A stretch of DNA of 41,918 bases from Clostridium sp. Its GTDB lineage: Bacteria > Bacillota > Clostridia > Clostridiales > Clostridiaceae. Location: positions 1 through 41,918 of the forward strand of contig JARIDB010000091.1 of the NCBI GenBank assembly GCA_029257045.1, read 5' to 3'. The notes under the pieces are model-generated. The model did not search any database and was not told where the DNA came from. It saw nothing but the letters and a program-made list of their open reading frames with translations. The translations under genes were made by a program, and so were the position numbers. Positions 15,356 through 22,134 of the stretch are shown here, one piece after another (position 1 is the stretch's first letter; every line of letters starts with the position of its first letter).

Positions 15356-16399
15356 TTATTCTTGAATTATAAAATCTTCATTACTTAAATTAAAGTTATC
15401 TTTTATACCATTACTTAAGTAGATTTTATTATCTTTTGTTACAAAGATTGCATCTATGCCATTTCTTGAATTAATGAAATCTAATCCATGTTCAAGTCCC
15501 ATAGCAAACACAGAAGTAGAAAGAGCATCACCATCAATGGATTTATCACTTACTATTGTTATACCCGCTATATTATTTTCATAAGGGTACCCTGTTTTTG
15601 GATTTAGAATATGATGATATCTAATTCCATTTTCTTCGAAATATCTTTCGTATATTCCGGAAGTAACTATAGATTTATCTTGAACCTTTATAGATCCAAT
15701 AATACCACCACGTTCAGATAAAGGGTTTTGGATACCTATCTTCCAAAGGTCGTCTTTATTCTTATTTCCATGTGCAAAAATATTTCCACCAAGGTCTATA
15801 ATTGCACTTTTAACTCCTCGGGCAGTTAAAAGTTCTGAAATTATATCGGCTGTAAAACCTTTAGCAATACCACCTAAGTCAAGTATCATACCTGATCTCT
15901 TTAAAGAAACTGTTTTGTTTGCATCATCTAAAATAATATCATTATAATTAATCAATGGTAGCTTAGAGTCAATTTCTTCTTTGGTAGGTAGCTTTTGTTC
16001 TGGTAATCCAATACTCCAAAGCTTAACTAAAGGTCCTATAGTTATATCAAAAAGTCCATTTGATACTTCAGAATATTCCAAACCACTTTTAATAACCTCA
16101 TATGTATCATCATCTACTTTAATAGGTTCTATTCCAGCAGATGTATTTATCTTATCAAGTAAAGTTCCATTTTCATTAATACTTAATTTAGATTCAATAT
16201 CTTTTATTTTATTAAATATATCATCTAAAATGCTTTCATCGGTACTATCATACATAGTAACTTTAATTACAGTCCCCATTAATAAATCACTTCTAGATAG
16301 AGGTTCTTTATTTTCTTGTTTTTTAGTACAACCTCCTAAAATTGAAAGAGAAAATATTAATAAAATACTTAAGCTTATATAGTTAAAGGTCTTTTTCAT
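15356..16399 (-). CDS. apbE: FAD:protein FMN transferase, lipoprotein (FmnB-type)
   Basis: Transfers FMN from FAD to a Thr of target proteins outside the membrane. The N-terminus is a lipoprotein signal with lipobox ILGGC (Cys near residue 24), so the enzyme is on the cell surface, as for Listeria FmnB. ApbE motifs are present: MGTVIKVTMYD, DLGGIAKGFTAD, DLGGNIFAHG and the metal/active-site region DGDALSTSVFAMG. The 347-aa length is typical. AGGAGGA precedes the start. The next gene upstream on the same strand encodes an FMN-binding lipoprotein carrying the target motif, its likely substrate. A hairpin between the two suggests partly separate transcription. Confidence 0.93.
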   Translation of the reverse strand: MKKTFNYISLSILLIFSLSILGGCTKKQENKEPLSRSDLLMGTVIKVTMYDSTDESILDDIFNKIKDIESKLSINENGTLLDKINTSAGIEPIKVDDDTYEVIKSGLEYSEVSNGLFDITIGPLVKLWSIGLPEQKLPTKEEIDSKLPLINYNDIILDDANKTVSLKRSGMILDLGGIAKGFTADIISELLTARGVKSAIIDLGGNIFAHGNKNKDDLWKIGIQNPLSERGGIIGSIKVQDKSIVTSGIYERYFEENGIRYHHILNPKTGYPYENNIAGITIVSDKSIDGDALSTSVFAMGLEHGLDFINSRNGIDAIFVTKDNKIYLSNGIKDNFNLSNEDFIIQE

Positions 16400-16499
16400 A
16401 AAAATCTTCCTCCTAAATAATATATATGTTTATCTATTAAATATATAATTTTTATTACAACTTACATACAAGTATATTATAGGTTAAAAGTTAGAAAAA

Positions 16500-16530
16500 A
16501 TAAAAGACTTTAGGAATAAATCCTAAAGCC
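16500..16530 (-). terminator. terminator of the FMN-binding lipoprotein gene
   Basis: Read on the minus strand, an 8-bp perfect stem (CTTTAGGA with TCCTAAAG) with a 5-nt loop is followed by TCTTTTATTTTTT. It lies 14 bp after the stop codon. Confidence 0.75.
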
Positions 16531-16544
16531 CTATTGAAATATAA

Positions 16545-16961
16545 TTATTTAGCAGTTTCTAAAGCTTTCTTAGCCAAAGCTTTGAAAGTATCAGATGTGT
16601 TAGTTGCACCAGTTACAGTATCAACAGCATCAACATCTTGTTTTTCAACTAAAGCAGTTTCTAAATCTGGGTAAGCTTTTATTGGGTTAATTCCGCTTAC
16701 AGCTTCCATTTTAGTATTATATTCAACATCTTGTAGTTTGCTTCCAGCATCATTAGCTTCATCAAACTTAACTGTTGCTATCTTACCATCTTTAACTTCT
16801 ATATTTATTGAAGCAACGTAGCCTCTTTCGTCTTTTTCAGATTTAGCTTCATAGTTTCCATTTTTTAATCCTGTTTCTTTAGCAGCACCACAGCCAACTA
16901 ATATTGTTGAAGCTAAAGCAGCTACAGTTACTAAACTTATAAATTTTTTTGATTTCATCAT
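16545..16961 (-). CDS. FMN-binding-domain lipoprotein (PplA-like electron carrier)
   Basis: Small surface flavoprotein. Lipobox ILVGC gives a lipidated Cys at residue 24. The remaining ~110 residues form one FMN-binding domain with the ApbE flavinylation motif DTVTGAT at 114-120; T120 is the expected FMN attachment site. Listeria PplA, the extracellular electron-transfer lipoprotein, has two such domains, so this 138-aa protein is a single-domain version. Its upstream neighbour on the opposite strand is ndh2, and apbE lies downstream, which supports a role as terminal carrier to external acceptors. GGGGG precedes ATG-ATG by 8 bp. Confidence 0.88.
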   Translation of the reverse strand: MMKSKKFISLVTVAALASTILVGCGAAKETGLKNGNYEAKSEKDERGYVASINIEVKDGKIATVKFDEANDAGSKLQDVEYNTKMEAVSGINPIKAYPDLETALVEKQDVDAVDTVTGATNTSDTFKALAKKALETAK

Positions 16962-17305
16962 AATAAAATCCCCCTTGTATTATTAAGTTTTGTAATTAAA
17001 TTAAAAGTTATCTATGTAAGTTAAATTAAAACTAATTACCCAATAATTATACACAATTATATTTAAAATTGATATTCAATTTACTTATATTGAATAAGTT
17101 ATTCTTATGATTAAAAAAAGTGGCTAATACTACCTATATAAGTAAATAAGCCATTTGAGTTAAAAAGAGAGATGAAAAGAAATGAAACATATTGTTAAAA
17201 AAACAACAAAATACTATCTAACTTATATGGACATATGTTAAAATAATATATAAAATTAAAGATGCTATTTTATAAATTTATATTATGAAGGGATAGGTGT
17301 GCAAC
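16962..17305. other. divergent control region between the FMN lipoprotein and ndh2
   Basis: This 344-bp AT-rich gap holds no gene. For the minus-strand gene there is a TATAAT at 17046-17051 and an inverted repeat TATTCAAT-N8-ATTGAATA at 17073-17096. For ndh2 there is an extended -10, TGTTAAAAT, at 17236-17244 and a Rex-like box at 17192-17209. On the minus strand a weak hairpin (TGGCT with AGCCA, 17121-17153) is followed by seven T, a possible terminator or attenuator lying upstream of the minus-strand -10. Confidence 0.5.
17192..17209 (+). promoter_or_regulatory. candidate Rex (NADH/NAD+ sensor) operator
   Basis: The 18-bp site matches the Rex consensus TTGTTAA-N4-TTAACAA at 12 of 14 defined positions: left half perfect, right half ACAACAA. 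It lies about 115 bp before ndh2 and upstream of the probable -10. The target fits, since Rex responds to the NADH that Ndh2 consumes. Part of the match is favoured by the AT-rich background. Confidence 0.45.
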
Positions 17306-19186
17306 ATGTCAAAAAATAAGATTGTTGTTCTTGGTGCCGGTTATGGTGGCGTTCATGCTGCTAAAAAACTAGCAAAGAAATATAAAAAAAATAATGATGT
17401 GGAAATTACTCTAATAGATAAAAATCCATACCATACTTTGATGACAGAGTTACATGAAGTTGCTGGGGGGAGAGTTCATCCTGAGTCAGTTCAAGTTGAA
17501 CTATGCAAAATTTTTGGAAAGTCTAAAGTAAATATAGTTACTGATTATATAGAAAAAGTAGATACAGATAATAAAAGAATTACTACAACTCATGGAGAAT
17601 ATTCATATGACTATTTAGTAGTTGGAACAGGTAGTGAGCCTGCATTCTTTGGAGTTCCAGGAGTAAAGGAAAATGGATTTACTTTATGGTCATTTGAAGA
17701 TGCTTTAGAAATAAGAGCTCATATACAAGATATGTTTGCTAAGGCAAGTCTTGAAAGAAATGCAGAAAAAAGAAAAGAAATGCTTACTTTTATAGTTGCT
17801 GGATCAGGTTTTACTGGTATAGAAATGGCTGGAGAGCTTATTGAGTGGAAATCAAAATTAGCTAAAAAACACAATGTAGATGAAAATGAGGTTACATTAA
17901 AAGTTGTTGAAGCTATGGGAACTATCTTAAATATGTTAGATAGAAAACAAGCTGATAAAGCAGAAAAGTATATGACTAAACATGGAATTGAAGTGTTAAA
18001 AAATTCTCCAATAGTTGAAGTTACAGAAAATGCTGTAATTTTAAAAGATGGAAGTAAAATAGCTACTAAAACATTAATTTGGACATGTGGAATTCAAGCT
18101 AATCAAGATGCTAAAGAATATGGGTTAGAAACTGCTAGAGCTGGTAGATTAAAAGCTAATGAATTTATGCAAGCTGAAGGAAAGAAAGATGTATTTGTAG
18201 TTGGAGATATGGCTTATTTAGAAGAAGAACCTGGAAAAGCAACTCCACAAATAGTTGAAGCAGCTGAACAAACAGCAAATACAGCTGTAAACAATATAGT
18301 TGCATCTATAGAAAATAAAGAAATGCAAAAATATAAAGGTGCTTATCATGGATTTATGGTATCAATTGGTGGAAGATACTGTGTTGCTAATCTAATGGGT
18401 GTTAAATTATCAGGATTTATTGCAATGATGATGAAACATTTAGTAAATCTTTATTATTTATGGGGAGTAAACAATATTAATACTGTTTACAACTATATAA
18501 GACATGAGTTTTTTGATATGGAAGATAAGAGATCTGTATTTAGAGGCCATATATCATCTAAAAGTAATAGATTATGGATTATACCATTAAGACTTTATAT
18601 AGGATTCTTATGGTTAACAGAAGGTATTGAAAAATTAATAGGTACAGCTAATTGGGACAAGTTATTTAGTGGTGATGGAAAATTTATTAATAAACTTAAA
18701 GATATTTCAGTAGGTGCTGATAGTTGGATAAAGGATGGAAATGTTAAAATACCATTTGAATGGTTACAAGATGCAACTTCAGGAGCATCAGCAGCTGGTG
18801 ATGTAGGAGAAGCAGCAACAGAGTGGGTAACTCCAATATTAAACTCAGTTCCAGGGTGGTATCAGTCAATAATGAAGATTATGATGCCAAATCCAGAAGT
18901 TGCAGTTTGGTTCCAAAGAATAGTTGTTTGTCTTGAAATTGGAATGGGGCTTGCTTTGATAGCTGGTTTATTTACATTCATATTCAGTGTAGTTTCAGCA
19001 GGTATGGTAATTAACTTTATCTTATGTGCTATGGCTGGATGGGATATATTGTGGTATTTCTTCGGATCAATAGCTTTAATGAGCGGAGCAGGTAGAACAT
19101 TCGGATTAGATTATTATATAATGCCGTGGATAAGTAAACTTGCAGATGAGTTTTGGCATGGCAAAAAGAAGCCATTATATAAGTAG
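17306..19186 (+). CDS. ndh2: type II NADH dehydrogenase with C-terminal membrane domain (EET-type Ndh2)
   Basis: Oxidises cytoplasmic NADH and reduces membrane quinone without pumping protons. The first ~400 residues form the two-dinucleotide fold: FAD loop VVLGAGYGGVHAA (about 7-19), VVGTGSEP, NADH loop IVAGSGFTGIEMA (about 163-175), and the second FAD motif VFVVGDMAY (about 296-304). The last ~200 residues are unusual for ordinary Ndh2 but match the EET-dedicated enzyme of Listeria: several hydrophobic segments (about 424-444, then three between about 535 and 605) resembling DoxX-type membrane proteins. The 626-aa length fits. ATG 17306 is preferred to GTG 17297, because AGGTG is 6 bp before the ATG. 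A Rex-like box lies upstream. Confidence 0.92.
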   Translation: MSKNKIVVLGAGYGGVHAAKKLAKKYKKNNDVEITLIDKNPYHTLMTELHEVAGGRVHPESVQVELCKIFGKSKVNIVTDYIEKVDTDNKRITTTHGEYSYDYLVVGTGSEPAFFGVPGVKENGFTLWSFEDALEIRAHIQDMFAKASLERNAEKRKEMLTFIVAGSGFTGIEMAGELIEWKSKLAKKHNVDENEVTLKVVEAMGTILNMLDRKQADKAEKYMTKHGIEVLKNSPIVEVTENAVILKDGSKIATKTLIWTCGIQANQDAKEYGLETARAGRLKANEFMQAEGKKDVFVVGDMAYLEEEPGKATPQIVEAAEQTANTAVNNIVASIENKEMQKYKGAYHGFMVSIGGRYCVANLMGVKLSGFIAMMMKHLVNLYYLWGVNNINTVYNYIRHEFFDMEDKRSVFRGHISSKSNRLWIIPLRLYIGFLWLTEGIEKLIGTANWDKLFSGDGKFINKLKDISVGADSWIKDGNVKIPFEWLQDATSGASAAGDVGEAATEWVTPILNSVPGWYQSIMKIMMPNPEVAVWFQRIVVCLEIGMGLALIAGLFTFIFSVVSAGMVINFILCAMAGWDILWYFFGSIALMSGAGRTFGLDYYIMPWISKLADEFWHGKKKPLYK

Positions 19187-19221
19187 AATATAATTTGAAA
19201 AAAGTCTCAAGATAATGTTAA

Positions 19222-19255
19222 TATATAAGGTAGAGTATATACTCTACCTTATATA
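19222..19255. repeat. 34-bp perfect palindrome between ndh2 and eetA
   Basis: Bases 19222-19255 equal their own reverse complement, with core GGTAGAGTATATACTCTACC. No T run follows, so it is not a standard terminator. It could be an operator, an RNA-processing hairpin or a partial terminator that sets ndh2 to eetAB expression. Confidence 0.75.
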
Positions 19256-19298
19256 ATATAAAGAATAAATTGAGTTTAACATAATAGGAGATTTATAG

Positions 19299-19679
19299 AT
19301 GTTTAAAAAGTTAGATTTCGTAATTATATGTATTTTAATGATTTTATCTTTTTTACCAGAAGTTATTTTAGGAGCAACTGCAGGTAAAAGTTATAATAAC
19401 ACTTATGCAGAGGTAACTGTAAGTGGTAAAATGTACAAAACAATTGCATTATCAGAACATGTTGGTGAGGATATACTTGAAGTTAAAACTGATGATGGGA
19501 TAAATATTATTAAAATTAAAGATAATAAAATAGGTATAATAGAAGCTGATTGTCCAGATAATGTATGTATGAATCCAGAATACATTGAAAATGCAGGACA
19601 AAGTTTAGTATGCCTTCCTCACAAGCTCATGATAGAAATTAAGGGAATAAGTGATGATGAAGTAATATTATCATATTAA
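19299..19679 (+). CDS. eetA: NusG-domain-II protein EetA
   Basis: Small membrane-anchored protein with one N-terminal hydrophobic segment (about residues 7-30) and a NusG domain II-like beta domain outside. The domain has the characteristic Cys cluster: DCPDNVC followed by SLVCLPHKL. In Listeria, EetA and EetB are needed for flavin-based extracellular electron transfer, and EetA usually lies directly before EetB, as here (11 bp). The 126-aa length is usual. The ribosome site is AGGAG. The exact chemistry of EetA is not known; a link in electron transfer across the membrane is inferred from its genetics. Confidence 0.88.
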   Translation: MFKKLDFVIICILMILSFLPEVILGATAGKSYNNTYAEVTVSGKMYKTIALSEHVGEDILEVKTDDGINIIKIKDNKIGIIEADCPDNVCMNPEYIENAGQSLVCLPHKLMIEIKGISDDEVILSY

Positions 19680-19690
19680 GGAGTAAAGCT

Positions 19691-20203
19691 ATGAGAAAAA
19701 CTAACAAAATTGTATATATAGGTTTATTGGTAGCTCAAGCTTTAGTATTACATATATTTGAAAGAATGATTCCTGTACCTTTTATAGCTCCAGGGGCAAG
19801 ACTTGGACTTGCTAATTTAATAAATGTTATAGCTATTTATACTTTAGATAGCAAAAAAGACGCATTCCTAGTACTATTTTTAAGGTTAACTTTAGCAACG
19901 ATGTTTGGTGGTAATTTATCATCCTTCATGTACAGTGCAGCAGGAGGAATATTAAGTTTCTTTGCAATGATATCAGTTAAAGAAGTTTTTAAAGATAAAG
20001 TAAGTATAATAGGAGTAAGTGCGTCAGGAGCAATATTTCATAATGTAGGTCAGCTGTTAATTGCATCATCAATAGTTAGGAATATAGGTGTAATGTTATA
20101 TTTGCCAGTATTATCAGCTATGGGAATAGGCACAGGTATTTTTATTGGAATAACAGCAAATTATATTGTTGGACATTTAAGAAAATTACCTATGTTTAAC
20201 TAA
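19691..20203 (+). CDS. eetB: Gx-transporter-family membrane protein EetB
   Basis: Polytopic membrane protein of 170 aa with about five hydrophobic segments. It belongs to the group often mislabelled heptaprenyl diphosphate synthase component I and also called Gx transporter; it shows the ECF-substrate-binding look (HIFERMIPVPFIAPGARLGL near the N-terminus and GGNLSSFMYSAAGGILSF in the middle). It lies between eetA and the polyprenyl synthase gene, as in the Listeria EET locus. AAGGAG is placed well before the ATG. The transported compound is unknown; a role in flavin or quinone electron transfer is inferred from context. Confidence 0.87.
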   Translation: MRKTNKIVYIGLLVAQALVLHIFERMIPVPFIAPGARLGLANLINVIAIYTLDSKKDAFLVLFLRLTLATMFGGNLSSFMYSAAGGILSFFAMISVKEVFKDKVSIIGVSASGAIFHNVGQLLIASSIVRNIGVMLYLPVLSAMGIGTGIFIGITANYIVGHLRKLPMFN

Positions 20204-20265
20204 TATAGAGCTATAAGAGATATCTAATTCTAAAGTTTAAAGTATCACTAAGAGGGTGGATAATA

Positions 20266-21231
20266 ATGAATAGGGTTTGGAATAAATATCCTGAAGTAAA
20301 AAAAGAATTAAAAGAAGTAGTTAATTTAATGAAAAAAAATATTAAATGTAAAGATAAAAAGATTGAAAACTCTATAATAGATTTAATCGAATCTGGTGGC
20401 AAAATGTTAAGACCAGCTTTTGTTTTGATAGGTTCAAAGTTTGGAGATTCAGATACTAAAAAATCAGTTCCAACAGCTTCTGTGATTGAATTGTTACATA
20501 TGGCATCTTTGGTTCATGATGATGTCATTGATGAATCAAAACTTAGAAGAGGGCAGGAGACTATACAATCTAAATATGGAAAAGACTATGCTGTATATAT
20601 TGGAGATTACCTTTTTTGTGTTTGCTTTAAAATTTTAGCCACAAGCTCTTCTTTAAAAACATTAAATGTAGATGCTAGAGCTATGTCGAAAATTTGTATG
20701 GGTGAAATAAACCAATTAAATTCTAGATTTTCAATGAAATTATCAGTTAAGGATTATTTAAGCAGAATTTCTGGAAAAACAGCAGAATTATTTTCTATAT
20801 CTTTATATTTAGGCGCAGCAGAATGTAATGCAGACAATATAGTTAGCAAGGAACTTAAAAATATAGGGCATAATTTAGGTATGGCTTTTCAAATAATGGA
20901 CGATATACTAGATTATGAAGGAAGCGATACTAGCATTAAGAAATCAGCGGCAAATGATTTAAGACAAGGTATATATACACTACCATTTATTTATGCTTAT
21001 AAGAATAATAAAAGTGACTTTAATGAAATAATAAATAAGAATTATTATACAGAAGAAGAAGTATACAATATTATTTCTTTAGTAGAAAAAAATAATGGGA
21101 TAATAATGGCTAAAGAATTAGCAGAAAAATATATGAATAAATGTTTTAAAGGAATAAATAATTTACCGGAAAATGAATATAAAGTTGTTTTAAAAGAAAT
21201 TGCAGAATGGCTTTTAAATAGAACATATTAA
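20266..21231 (+). CDS. dmkB: polyprenyl diphosphate synthase (DmkB-type)
   Basis: Trans-prenyltransferase that builds the isoprenoid tail of the EET quinone from IPP and an allylic starter. Both Asp-rich motifs are complete: HDDVIDESKLRRG (first) and FQIMDDILDYEG (second), with GGKMLRPAFV near the N-terminus and the KTAELF block. The 321-aa length suits a long-chain (C30-C40) synthase. It is last in the ndh2-eetA-eetB-dmkB series, 62 bp after eetB. Its Listeria counterpart DmkB works with the prenyltransferase DmkA, which is not in this window. Chain length cannot be fixed by eye. Confidence 0.88.
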   Translation: MNRVWNKYPEVKKELKEVVNLMKKNIKCKDKKIENSIIDLIESGGKMLRPAFVLIGSKFGDSDTKKSVPTASVIELLHMASLVHDDVIDESKLRRGQETIQSKYGKDYAVYIGDYLFCVCFKILATSSSLKTLNVDARAMSKICMGEINQLNSRFSMKLSVKDYLSRISGKTAELFSISLYLGAAECNADNIVSKELKNIGHNLGMAFQIMDDILDYEGSDTSIKKSAANDLRQGIYTLPFIYAYKNNKSDFNEIINKNYYTEEEVYNIISLVEKNNGIIMAKELAEKYMNKCFKGINNLPENEYKVVLKEIAEWLLNRTY

Positions 21232-21233
21232 TA

Positions 21234-21276
21234 AATAAAGGGCTACTTATATTAAGTAGTCCTTTATTATTTTTTT
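21234..21276. terminator. terminator after dmkB, overlapping the lysR stop
   Basis: A 15-bp stem (21234-21248 with 21254-21268, one G-U wobble) with a 5-nt loop is followed by seven T on the plus strand. The stop codon of the convergent lysR gene lies inside the hairpin. Confidence 0.9.
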
Positions 21277-22134
21277 AAACGCTTTTATATAGTCAACATT
21301 AAGCTTATAAAAACCTTCTTTGTAACTAATATAAACAGGAAAAGATAAAGAAAAGTCTACAATTTCAACTATTTTAATATCAAAATTTTTATGGTAGTTA
21401 TTATAAATGCTTTTAGGAATAAAGGTATAAGCATCACTTATATGCAAACTATTTAAAGCTGAAATATAAGAGTCTGTACGATAAATTAAATTCATTTGTT
21501 CAAAAATGCTTTTATCCAAACTAAGTTCTTTAAATATAGTTGTTTGTAAGTTGTTTTTATTATAAATACAAATTAGAGGCAAATTTGGTAAGTCTAATTT
21601 ACTTATATTGTTAACCTTTGAATTGTTAGATGTAACAAGGACCATTTCATCATATCCAATTAGCTTATTAATTAAGTTATCATTCTTTTGAGGTTTAAAA
21701 TAAGTTAATAAAATATCAGAAATATTATTTAACAAATTATCATTAGATGAATTATTGCTTATATTTAAATTTATCTTATGAGATGAATAGATCTTATTTA
21801 ATTTAGAAATAGCAACTGGAAGAATAGTTAAAGTTAAAGATTCGATAGATTCAATGTAGATTAATTTTTTTTTATTAATTGAATCAATAAGCTCTTCCTG
21901 CATCTTTCCATATGCATTTAGAATAGTTTCAGAGTATTTTAAAAGTATATTTCCTTCAGGGGTAAGAGACACACCCTTATTATTTCTATCAAATAGTTTA
22001 ACATTTAAACTGTTTTCTAATTTTTGTATCTGTTGACTTAAAGCAGATTGAGATATATGTGAATTTTTAGCTACAATAGAAATATTTTTTGCTTTAGCAA
22101 CTTCAAAAAAGTAATTTAAGCTATCTATATGCAT
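21247..22134 (-). CDS. LysR-family transcriptional regulator
   Basis: N-terminal winged helix-turn-helix (residues about 1-65) of LysR type: LNYFFEVAKAKNISIVAKN, SQSALSQQIQKLENSL, LFDRNNKGVSLTPEG. A type-2 periplasmic-binding-like effector domain covers about 90-295; the ligand is unknown. The 295-aa length is standard. The gene is convergent with dmkB, so it is not an obvious regulator of the EET genes, though it could act in trans. Its own upstream region holds short inverted repeats that may be autoregulatory sites. Confidence 0.92.
   Translation of the reverse strand: MHIDSLNYFFEVAKAKNISIVAKNSHISQSALSQQIQKLENSLNVKLFDRNNKGVSLTPEGNILLKYSETILNAYGKMQEELIDSINKKKLIYIESIESLTLTILPVAISKLNKIYSSHKINLNISNNSSNDNLLNNISDILLTYFKPQKNDNLINKLIGYDEMVLVTSNNSKVNNISKLDLPNLPLICIYNKNNLQTTIFKELSLDKSIFEQMNLIYRTDSYISALNSLHISDAYTFIPKSIYNNYHKNFDIKIVEIVDFSLSFPVYISYKEGFYKLNVDYIKAFKKIIKDYLI

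Follow-up and report, generated by a model that had tools for sequence, protein, structure and literature searches.

A flavin-based extracellular electron transfer locus in a Clostridium and its probable dependence on an outside quinone ring

Flavin-based extracellular electron transfer (FLEET) has been described as the work of a gene set comprising Ndh2, flavin transport proteins, DmkA, EetB/DmkB, PplA and EetA (PMC9888254), and extracellular electron transfer (EET) loci have already been published for many Firmicutes (PMC8837199, PMC9973259). According to one account of the Listeria system, EetB is an S-type subunit of the energy-coupling factor (ECF) class that exports flavin adenine dinucleotide (FAD), the ECF-T protein FmnA is required, and a clean eetA deletion gave no EET phenotype (PMC9973259). 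For Lactiplantibacillus plantarum, it is reported that eetA/B mattered for flavin-mediated EET (PMC9888254) and that this quinone auxotroph uses exogenous 1,4-dihydroxy-2-naphthoate (DHNA) for EET (PMC10746273). Clostridium is named among the genera with species that have lost quinone synthesis in a source that also states that transporters for menaquinone or DHNA were not yet described (PMC5738691), and a route through ApbE and NosR was put forward for Clostridium in 2026 (PMC13134045). Here we describe a six-gene EET locus on a 41,918-nucleotide stretch of Clostridium sp. DNA (hereafter the window), which is a single contig of a 2.66-Mb genome (G000) that is 84.7% complete. The locus resembles the described FLEET systems in gene content, and its quinone would probably be built on a ring from outside the cell.

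Genes of the locus and their distribution

A preliminary description of this DNA had placed the six genes in two divergent arms about one control region and had named them a flavin-based EET locus. We found all six open reading frames (ORFs) at the positions and on the strands given there (Table 1), encoding ApbE, a lipoprotein that binds flavin mononucleotide (FMN), Ndh2, EetA, EetB and DmkB. Pfam placed every one of these proteins in the family expected of a flavin-based EET set, and the divergent arrangement recurred in close relatives, so that homology and gene-order conservation both give the name good support. The coordinates needed two amendments, as a LysR-type gene had been left out of the unit and the start of Ndh2 had to be moved: the ORF contains an in-frame GTG at 17297, 9 bases 5' of ATG 17306, and the ATG is the more likely start because relatives begin at the equivalent of MSKNK. 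EetA and EetB scored above the cut-offs of PF07009 and PF07456, respectively, and were without any NCBIfam match; the other four proteins had only sub-cut-off NCBIfam matches. Across the (incomplete) genome, ApbE, PF07456 and FMN_bind each gave 1 match, all inside the locus.

Ndh2 carries the C-terminal membrane domain of FLEET dehydrogenases, visible as weak DoxD/DoxX matches and hydrophobic segments within residues 548-589. Its best matches in the PDB were 4nwz (3.9e-71), which we take to be a type II NADH dehydrogenase (NDH-2), and the NADH dehydrogenase-like protein YjlD (1.4e-69); together with SAOUHSC_00878 these matches extended across ~390 residues at 1.1e-55 or better. Assignment as a sulfide:quinone or CoA-disulfide reductase was rejected, since the first sulfide:quinone reductase appeared at 1.1e-14 and NDH-2 structures scored far better. 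The preliminary description had also asked for a comparison with the Listeria proteins, and this held for ApbE, whose closest solved structure was Listeria FmnB (7ESA; 8.6e-102, 344 bits, with the runner-up at 2.5e-60, 208 bits); residue-level comparison with Listeria was limited to FmnB, the PDB codes of which are confirmed in PMC8906456.

The lipoprotein matched the NCBIfam PplA model at 2.4e-24 with 86 bits, short of the cut-off of 325, and covered profile positions 57-161 of 302. It bears DTVTGAT, presumably a flavinylation motif of the DxxTGAT type, and its nearest solved protein was PDB 3o6u (CPE2226; 7e-22), a protein with a C. perfringens locus tag. EetA residues C85, D87, C90, C105 and P107 were invariant in 38/38 clustered homologues, and the solved relative Lin0431 was without the first two of the EetA cysteines; the cysteines may form a metal or disulfide site. 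A structure model of EetA (predicted local distance difference test score 77.5) consisted of a membrane helix and a beta domain. DmkB scored above its Pfam cut-off and matched the HepT-type NCBIfam model at 7.9e-79, below cut-off, as were all NCBIfam equivalogs.

We then searched the 206 genomes of the family with Ndh2 as the query (E <= 1e-60). Ndh2 was present in 72 of them, this one included, and in 21 of the 46 genera. Neighbourhoods were compared for 60 of the other 71 Ndh2 genomes plus the window (61 loci), taking ~9 kb on each side under one similarity clustering, with some stretches ended by contig ends. By these counts, DmkB was near Ndh2 in 60 loci, EetA in 38, EetB in 37, ApbE in 38, LysR in 27 and a DmkA-like gene in 20; all six genes, with the main lipoprotein cluster, stood together in 17/61. 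Cluster 29 was dropped as a further FMN-binding lipoprotein, its tested member being without a Pfam match. In records from beyond the family, such as Paenibacillus, Halanaerobium and Spirochaetota, DmkB again accompanied Ndh2, in some together with ApbE (at least 64 loci, partial matches included). A search by Ndh2 alignment (at least 64 loci) had no Listeria or Enterococcus record among the matches listed.

From these sequence comparisons we estimate a probability of about 0.8 that the block is a FLEET-type flavin-based EET module. Some points speak against it. The block contains no fmnA (the genome was not searched for FmnA, the ECF-T protein, or for ECF ATPases). In two close genomes (G046, loci L009/L075; G016, loci L010/L076) Ndh2, ApbE, EetAB and DmkB were present and the lipoprotein was not found between ApbE and Ndh2. 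Five loci (L085, L098, L106, L107 and L111) had the other five genes and no FMN-binding cluster nearby.

Prenylation genes and the source of the quinone ring

The preliminary description had further proposed a quinone-linked NADH outlet. The dehydrogenase and the prenylation genes that such an outlet needs are present; MenD and MqnE, marking the two ring pathways, were undetected, and DmkA lies on another contig (G000:C134:11812-12768). The quinone link is thus incomplete: in this genome, which is 84.7% complete, both of the ring pathways that we tested for went undetected, and such an outlet would require a head group supplied from outside or formed by an unrecognised route. DmkA is the only UbiA-family match of the genome and exceeds two NCBIfam cut-offs for DHNA polyprenyltransferases (320 vs 316 and 351 vs 289 bits); this component of the FLEET set is therefore present, although unlinked to the block.

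Across the family, matches to DmkA fell into two groups, 59 genomes at 5.1e-50 or better and another 21 at 9.1e-37 or worse, with the boundary chosen after the scores were seen. The strong group was found in 57/72 Ndh2 genomes vs 2/134 others. A second type of UbiA, with scores no worse than 3.1e-47 and a gap to the next at 1.6e-36, was found in 38/72 vs 0/134, one copy (G072) having an internal stop; this genome has none. At least one of the two prenyltransferase types occurred in 68/72 Ndh2 genomes, and the genomes with neither (G025, G063, G065 and G200) each had a distant UbiA match (1.0e-10 to 1.6e-24). In contrast to the prenyltransferases, MenD showed no association with Ndh2: it was above cut-off in 9/206 genomes, 3/72 with Ndh2 vs 6/134 without, and had no match in this genome. 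MqnE was above cut-off in 0/206 genomes, the match in this genome being far below it, which leaves the futalosine pathway unsupported as a ring source. PF02621 (the MqnA/D family) had no match here and matched in 15/206 genomes, 12 over the Pfam cut-off and the best at 1.2e-10; because these scores are weak, the matches are probably related binding proteins.

We consider it probable that the quinone ring is borrowed from outside. Instead, the cell could produce its own ring through a pathway that was missed or is not recognised, and the organism would then be self-sufficient as in Listeria. MenD in 3 Ndh2 genomes would agree with this, as would the narrowness of the probes (MenD alone for the classical route, MqnE and the MqnA/D family for futalosine) and the incompleteness of the genome. 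However, 69/72 Ndh2 genomes had no MenD above cut-off although 62/72 are >=90% complete and <=5% contaminated, and with MqnE above cut-off in no genome and PF02621 only weakly matched, synthesis in the cell appears unlikely. The same narrow probes also count against borrowing from outside, as do further points: the absences in this genome are weak and lean on relatives because it is 84.7% complete; the co-occurrence counts of Ndh2 with prenyltransferases, and their Fisher values, ignore relatedness; and a prenylated quinone may not be the carrier at all, because dmkA/dmkB were scored as not required for EET in L. plantarum, with a minor loss of iron reduction (PMC9888254).

A second set of genes may bear on ring supply. 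In 12/61 loci (L085, L086, L089, L109, L112, L115-L120 and L122), the second UbiA type stood with UbiD- and UbiX-like genes near Ndh2-DmkB. A substrate-binding lipoprotein, NMT1-type in the single case tested, accompanied 11/12 of these blocks, and genes for an ATP-binding cassette (ABC) ATPase and permease accompanied most of them; a U32 peptidase-family gene was often nearby. Single examples were compared with NCBIfam-type models: UbiD of L116 passed a menaquinone biosynthesis decarboxylase model (659 vs 496 bits), UbiA of L085 passed TIGR01475 (300 vs 181) and fell under the MqnP-specific cut-offs (294 vs 430 at best), and the L116 binding protein was under the SsuA-family cut-off (90 vs 164). 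Because the UbiA and the binding protein fall below the specific cut-offs, the substrate and role that we assign to this module are conjectural. mqnP, mqnL and mqnM are reported by Ravcheev and Thiele only from genomes with the Mqn pathway (PMC4746308), whereas the MqnP/MqnL/MqnM-like genes of these loci occur without MqnE.

Near the EET locus in L092, L093, L096, L097 and L098, a divergent DmkA-like prenyltransferase (309-311 aa) lay beside ABC permease genes; in L096, L097 and L098 this divergent form was the only DmkA-like gene near Ndh2, and one tested member was below the NCBIfam cut-offs. These genes are a candidate third salvage set.

We tentatively suggest, at odds somewhat short of even, that NDH-2-based EET in Clostridiaceae runs almost wholly on borrowed rings by two salvage routes. 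DmkA would handle DHNA; in other genomes, 1,4-dihydroxy-6-naphthoate would be brought in and completed, with no need for the early futalosine steps, by an MqnP/MqnL/MqnM-like block beside Ndh2-DmkB that has an ABC importer of the NitT/TauT type. If so, clostridial electron export would be a community trait, and the second block would point to an importer for such precursors.

Control region and LysR-type regulator

The control region between the arms was aligned across 10 close genomes, this one included. Four conserved blocks were observed: a TATAAT-like box toward the lipoprotein, a dyad, a TTGTTAA-A-rich block and -35/-10 elements before ndh2. The dyad was surveyed in 32 control regions, comprising 12 close genomes (this one and L069-L079) and 20 others. 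Exact CTTAT-N5-ATAAG was found in 12/12 close genomes, the arms being constant and the middle five bases variable. It occurred once in the window vs 0.21 expected, and first-order Markov simulations of the 12 close loci produced it in 0-0.5% of 200 trials each. An extended version of the dyad, taken from the 10-genome alignment, occurred once each in 21/212 loci, always in the control region, these 21 being overlapping stretches of 10 genomes including this one; L075 and L076 had the dyad and not the extended form.

The LysR cluster was found in 27/61 Ndh2 loci, where it lay either next to DmkB or in the stretch from ApbE to Ndh2/DmkA. Because the LysR gene accompanies the locus, LysR control of both arms through the dyad is a reasonable proposal, based on co-conservation in the close genomes and on the T-N11-A shape of LysR-type boxes. 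Two results count against this pairing: the exact dyad was absent from 20/20 of the other control regions, L083 of the same genus included, and some dyad-less regions (e.g. L080, L081, L083 and L084) still have LysR. Autoregulation of LysR through the dyad was not supported, as no exact copy lay <=200 bases upstream of LysR in 27 loci, the best having 1 mismatch (L070 and L112).

Control of ndh2 by Rex was likewise not supported. The window had 20 matches to a Rex consensus at <=3 mismatches vs 18.6 by chance, per-locus simulations gave P of 0.02-0.84 across the 12 close genomes, and a genome search gave three one-mismatch sites, the same number as a reversed control pattern; the site in Table 1 is kept as weak.

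Table 1. Features of the EET locus, in window coordinates
Feature	Position	Strand	Evidence
ApbE/FmnB-type FAD:protein FMN transferase, predicted lipoprotein	15356..16399	-	Pfam ApbE 3.6e-90; hydrophobic start ends ...LGGC
PplA-like FMN-binding lipoprotein, one FMN_bind domain	16545..16961	-	Pfam FMN_bind 4.7e-06; lipobox LVGC; motif DTVTGAT
Divergent control region between arms	16962..17305	.	Sequence; 10-genome alignment (close genomes, this one included)
Extended -10 (TGTGTATAAT), proposed lipoprotein promoter	17046..17055	-	ATTATACACA block in alignment, one row cut there; putative assignment
Dyad CTTAT-N5-ATAAG, proposed operator	17084..17098	.	Fits LysR-type T-N11-A box
Rex-like site TTGTTAAAAAAACAACAA, weak	17192..17209	.	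2 mismatches to Rex consensus; TTGTTAA in 9/10 aligned rows
ndh2 promoter, proposed	17228..17256	+	-35 TGGACA, 17-bp spacer, -10 TAAAAT; conserved block; putative assignment
Ndh2, type II NADH dehydrogenase; DoxX-like membrane domain at the C-terminus	17306..19186	+	Pfam Pyr_redox_2 2.9e-45; ORF opens GTG 17297
EetA, NusG_II domain and N-terminal membrane helix	19299..19679	+	Pfam 3.1e-30
EetB (PF07456)	19691..20203	+	Pfam Hpre_diP_synt_I 4.4e-49
DmkB, long-chain polyprenyl diphosphate synthase	20266..21231	+	Pfam polyprenyl_synt 1.3e-65
LysR-type regulator	21247..22134	-	Pfam HTH_1 5.5e-19; outside the span of the preliminary description

Proposed electron path and comparison with described systems

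From the homologues we infer the following electron flow, flavinylation, ring uptake and LysR binding. Ndh2 would oxidise NADH and pass the electrons to a membrane naphthoquinone; from the reduced carrier they would move outward to the surface lipoprotein with its covalent FMN and then to an acceptor outside the cell, such as ferric iron or free flavin. EetB would carry FAD outward and ApbE would put FMN on the lipoprotein, while DmkB would supply the isoprenoid tail that DmkA couples to the ring; the ring, DHNA, would probably come from outside, given that we detected no pathway for making it. LysR on the dyad of the shared region may co-regulate both arms.

Other uses of the flavin genes can be imagined. 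The flavin branch might serve flavinylated reductases outside the cell that act on organic acceptors such as fumarate or urocanate, and not minerals; in some close relatives (G011, G012 and G049) FMN_bind lies in open frames of 595-642 aa, which would be long enough for such enzymes, but this (incomplete) genome has no such frame, and we regard this use as rather doubtful. ApbE and EetB might instead mainly mature the Rnf complex (RnfG/RnfD), their place beside Ndh2 being incidental: eetB is stated to adjoin Rnf genes in 572 Clostridia genomes (PMC9973259), and close relatives have FMN_bind proteins of what appears to be about RnfG size. However, the sole ApbE, EetB and FMN_bind matches of this incomplete genome, in which no Rnf gene search was made, all lie in the locus, and several relatives keep a second PF07456 copy outside theirs, which makes the Rnf explanation improbable, although ApbE may serve both the lipoprotein and Rnf. 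That Ndh2 and quinone feed a terminal oxidase removing oxygen, with DmkA and DmkB supplying the quinone and NDH-2 enzymes commonly feeding oxidases, is very improbable, since cytochrome bd was found in 6/206 genomes, 3/72 with Ndh2, and not in this one (haem-copper oxidases were not searched for).

On the reading of the block as a FLEET-type module, these data place an EET core in a Clostridium, with its dehydrogenase in 72/206 family genomes, mostly without the ring pathways tested. The EET system itself is of known type; its dependence on an outside quinone ring is the most useful new claim, which we hold with moderate confidence. A literature search of titles and the starts of abstracts, mostly open-access, found among the papers listed no description of a family-wide link between Ndh2 and prenyltransferases without ring synthesis. 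If the claim is true, these fermenters rely for electron disposal on ring precursors that their neighbours leak, and LysR and the dyad, both conserved, offer a way to learn when the system is switched on.

Among solved proteins, the one closest to the lipoprotein, CPE2226, was deposited as uncharacterised. The rice-root Clostridium ApbE-NosR module shares with our locus the genus, ApbE, a flavinylated carrier and a proposed quinone-linked reduction of Fe(III); its carrier is NosR and not a PplA-type lipoprotein, and 'Ndh2' occurs 0 times in the main text of that paper (PMC13134045). In common with the FLEET locus of Listeria monocytogenes, the block has ndh2, a pplA-like gene, fmnB, eetA, eetB and dmkB, with ApbE nearest to FmnB among solved structures. 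It differs in its single-domain lipoprotein, which aligns to part of the PplA model, in the unlinked dmkA, in having no fmnA in the block and no ring pathway detected, and in its conserved LysR. The FLEET system of L. plantarum, as described in PMC10746273 and PMC9888254, resembles it in a gene set with dmkA and dmkB and in the predicted need for an outside naphthoquinone; here the host is a Clostridium, and in related genera a second prenyltransferase module, of the MqnP/MqnL/MqnM type, is added.

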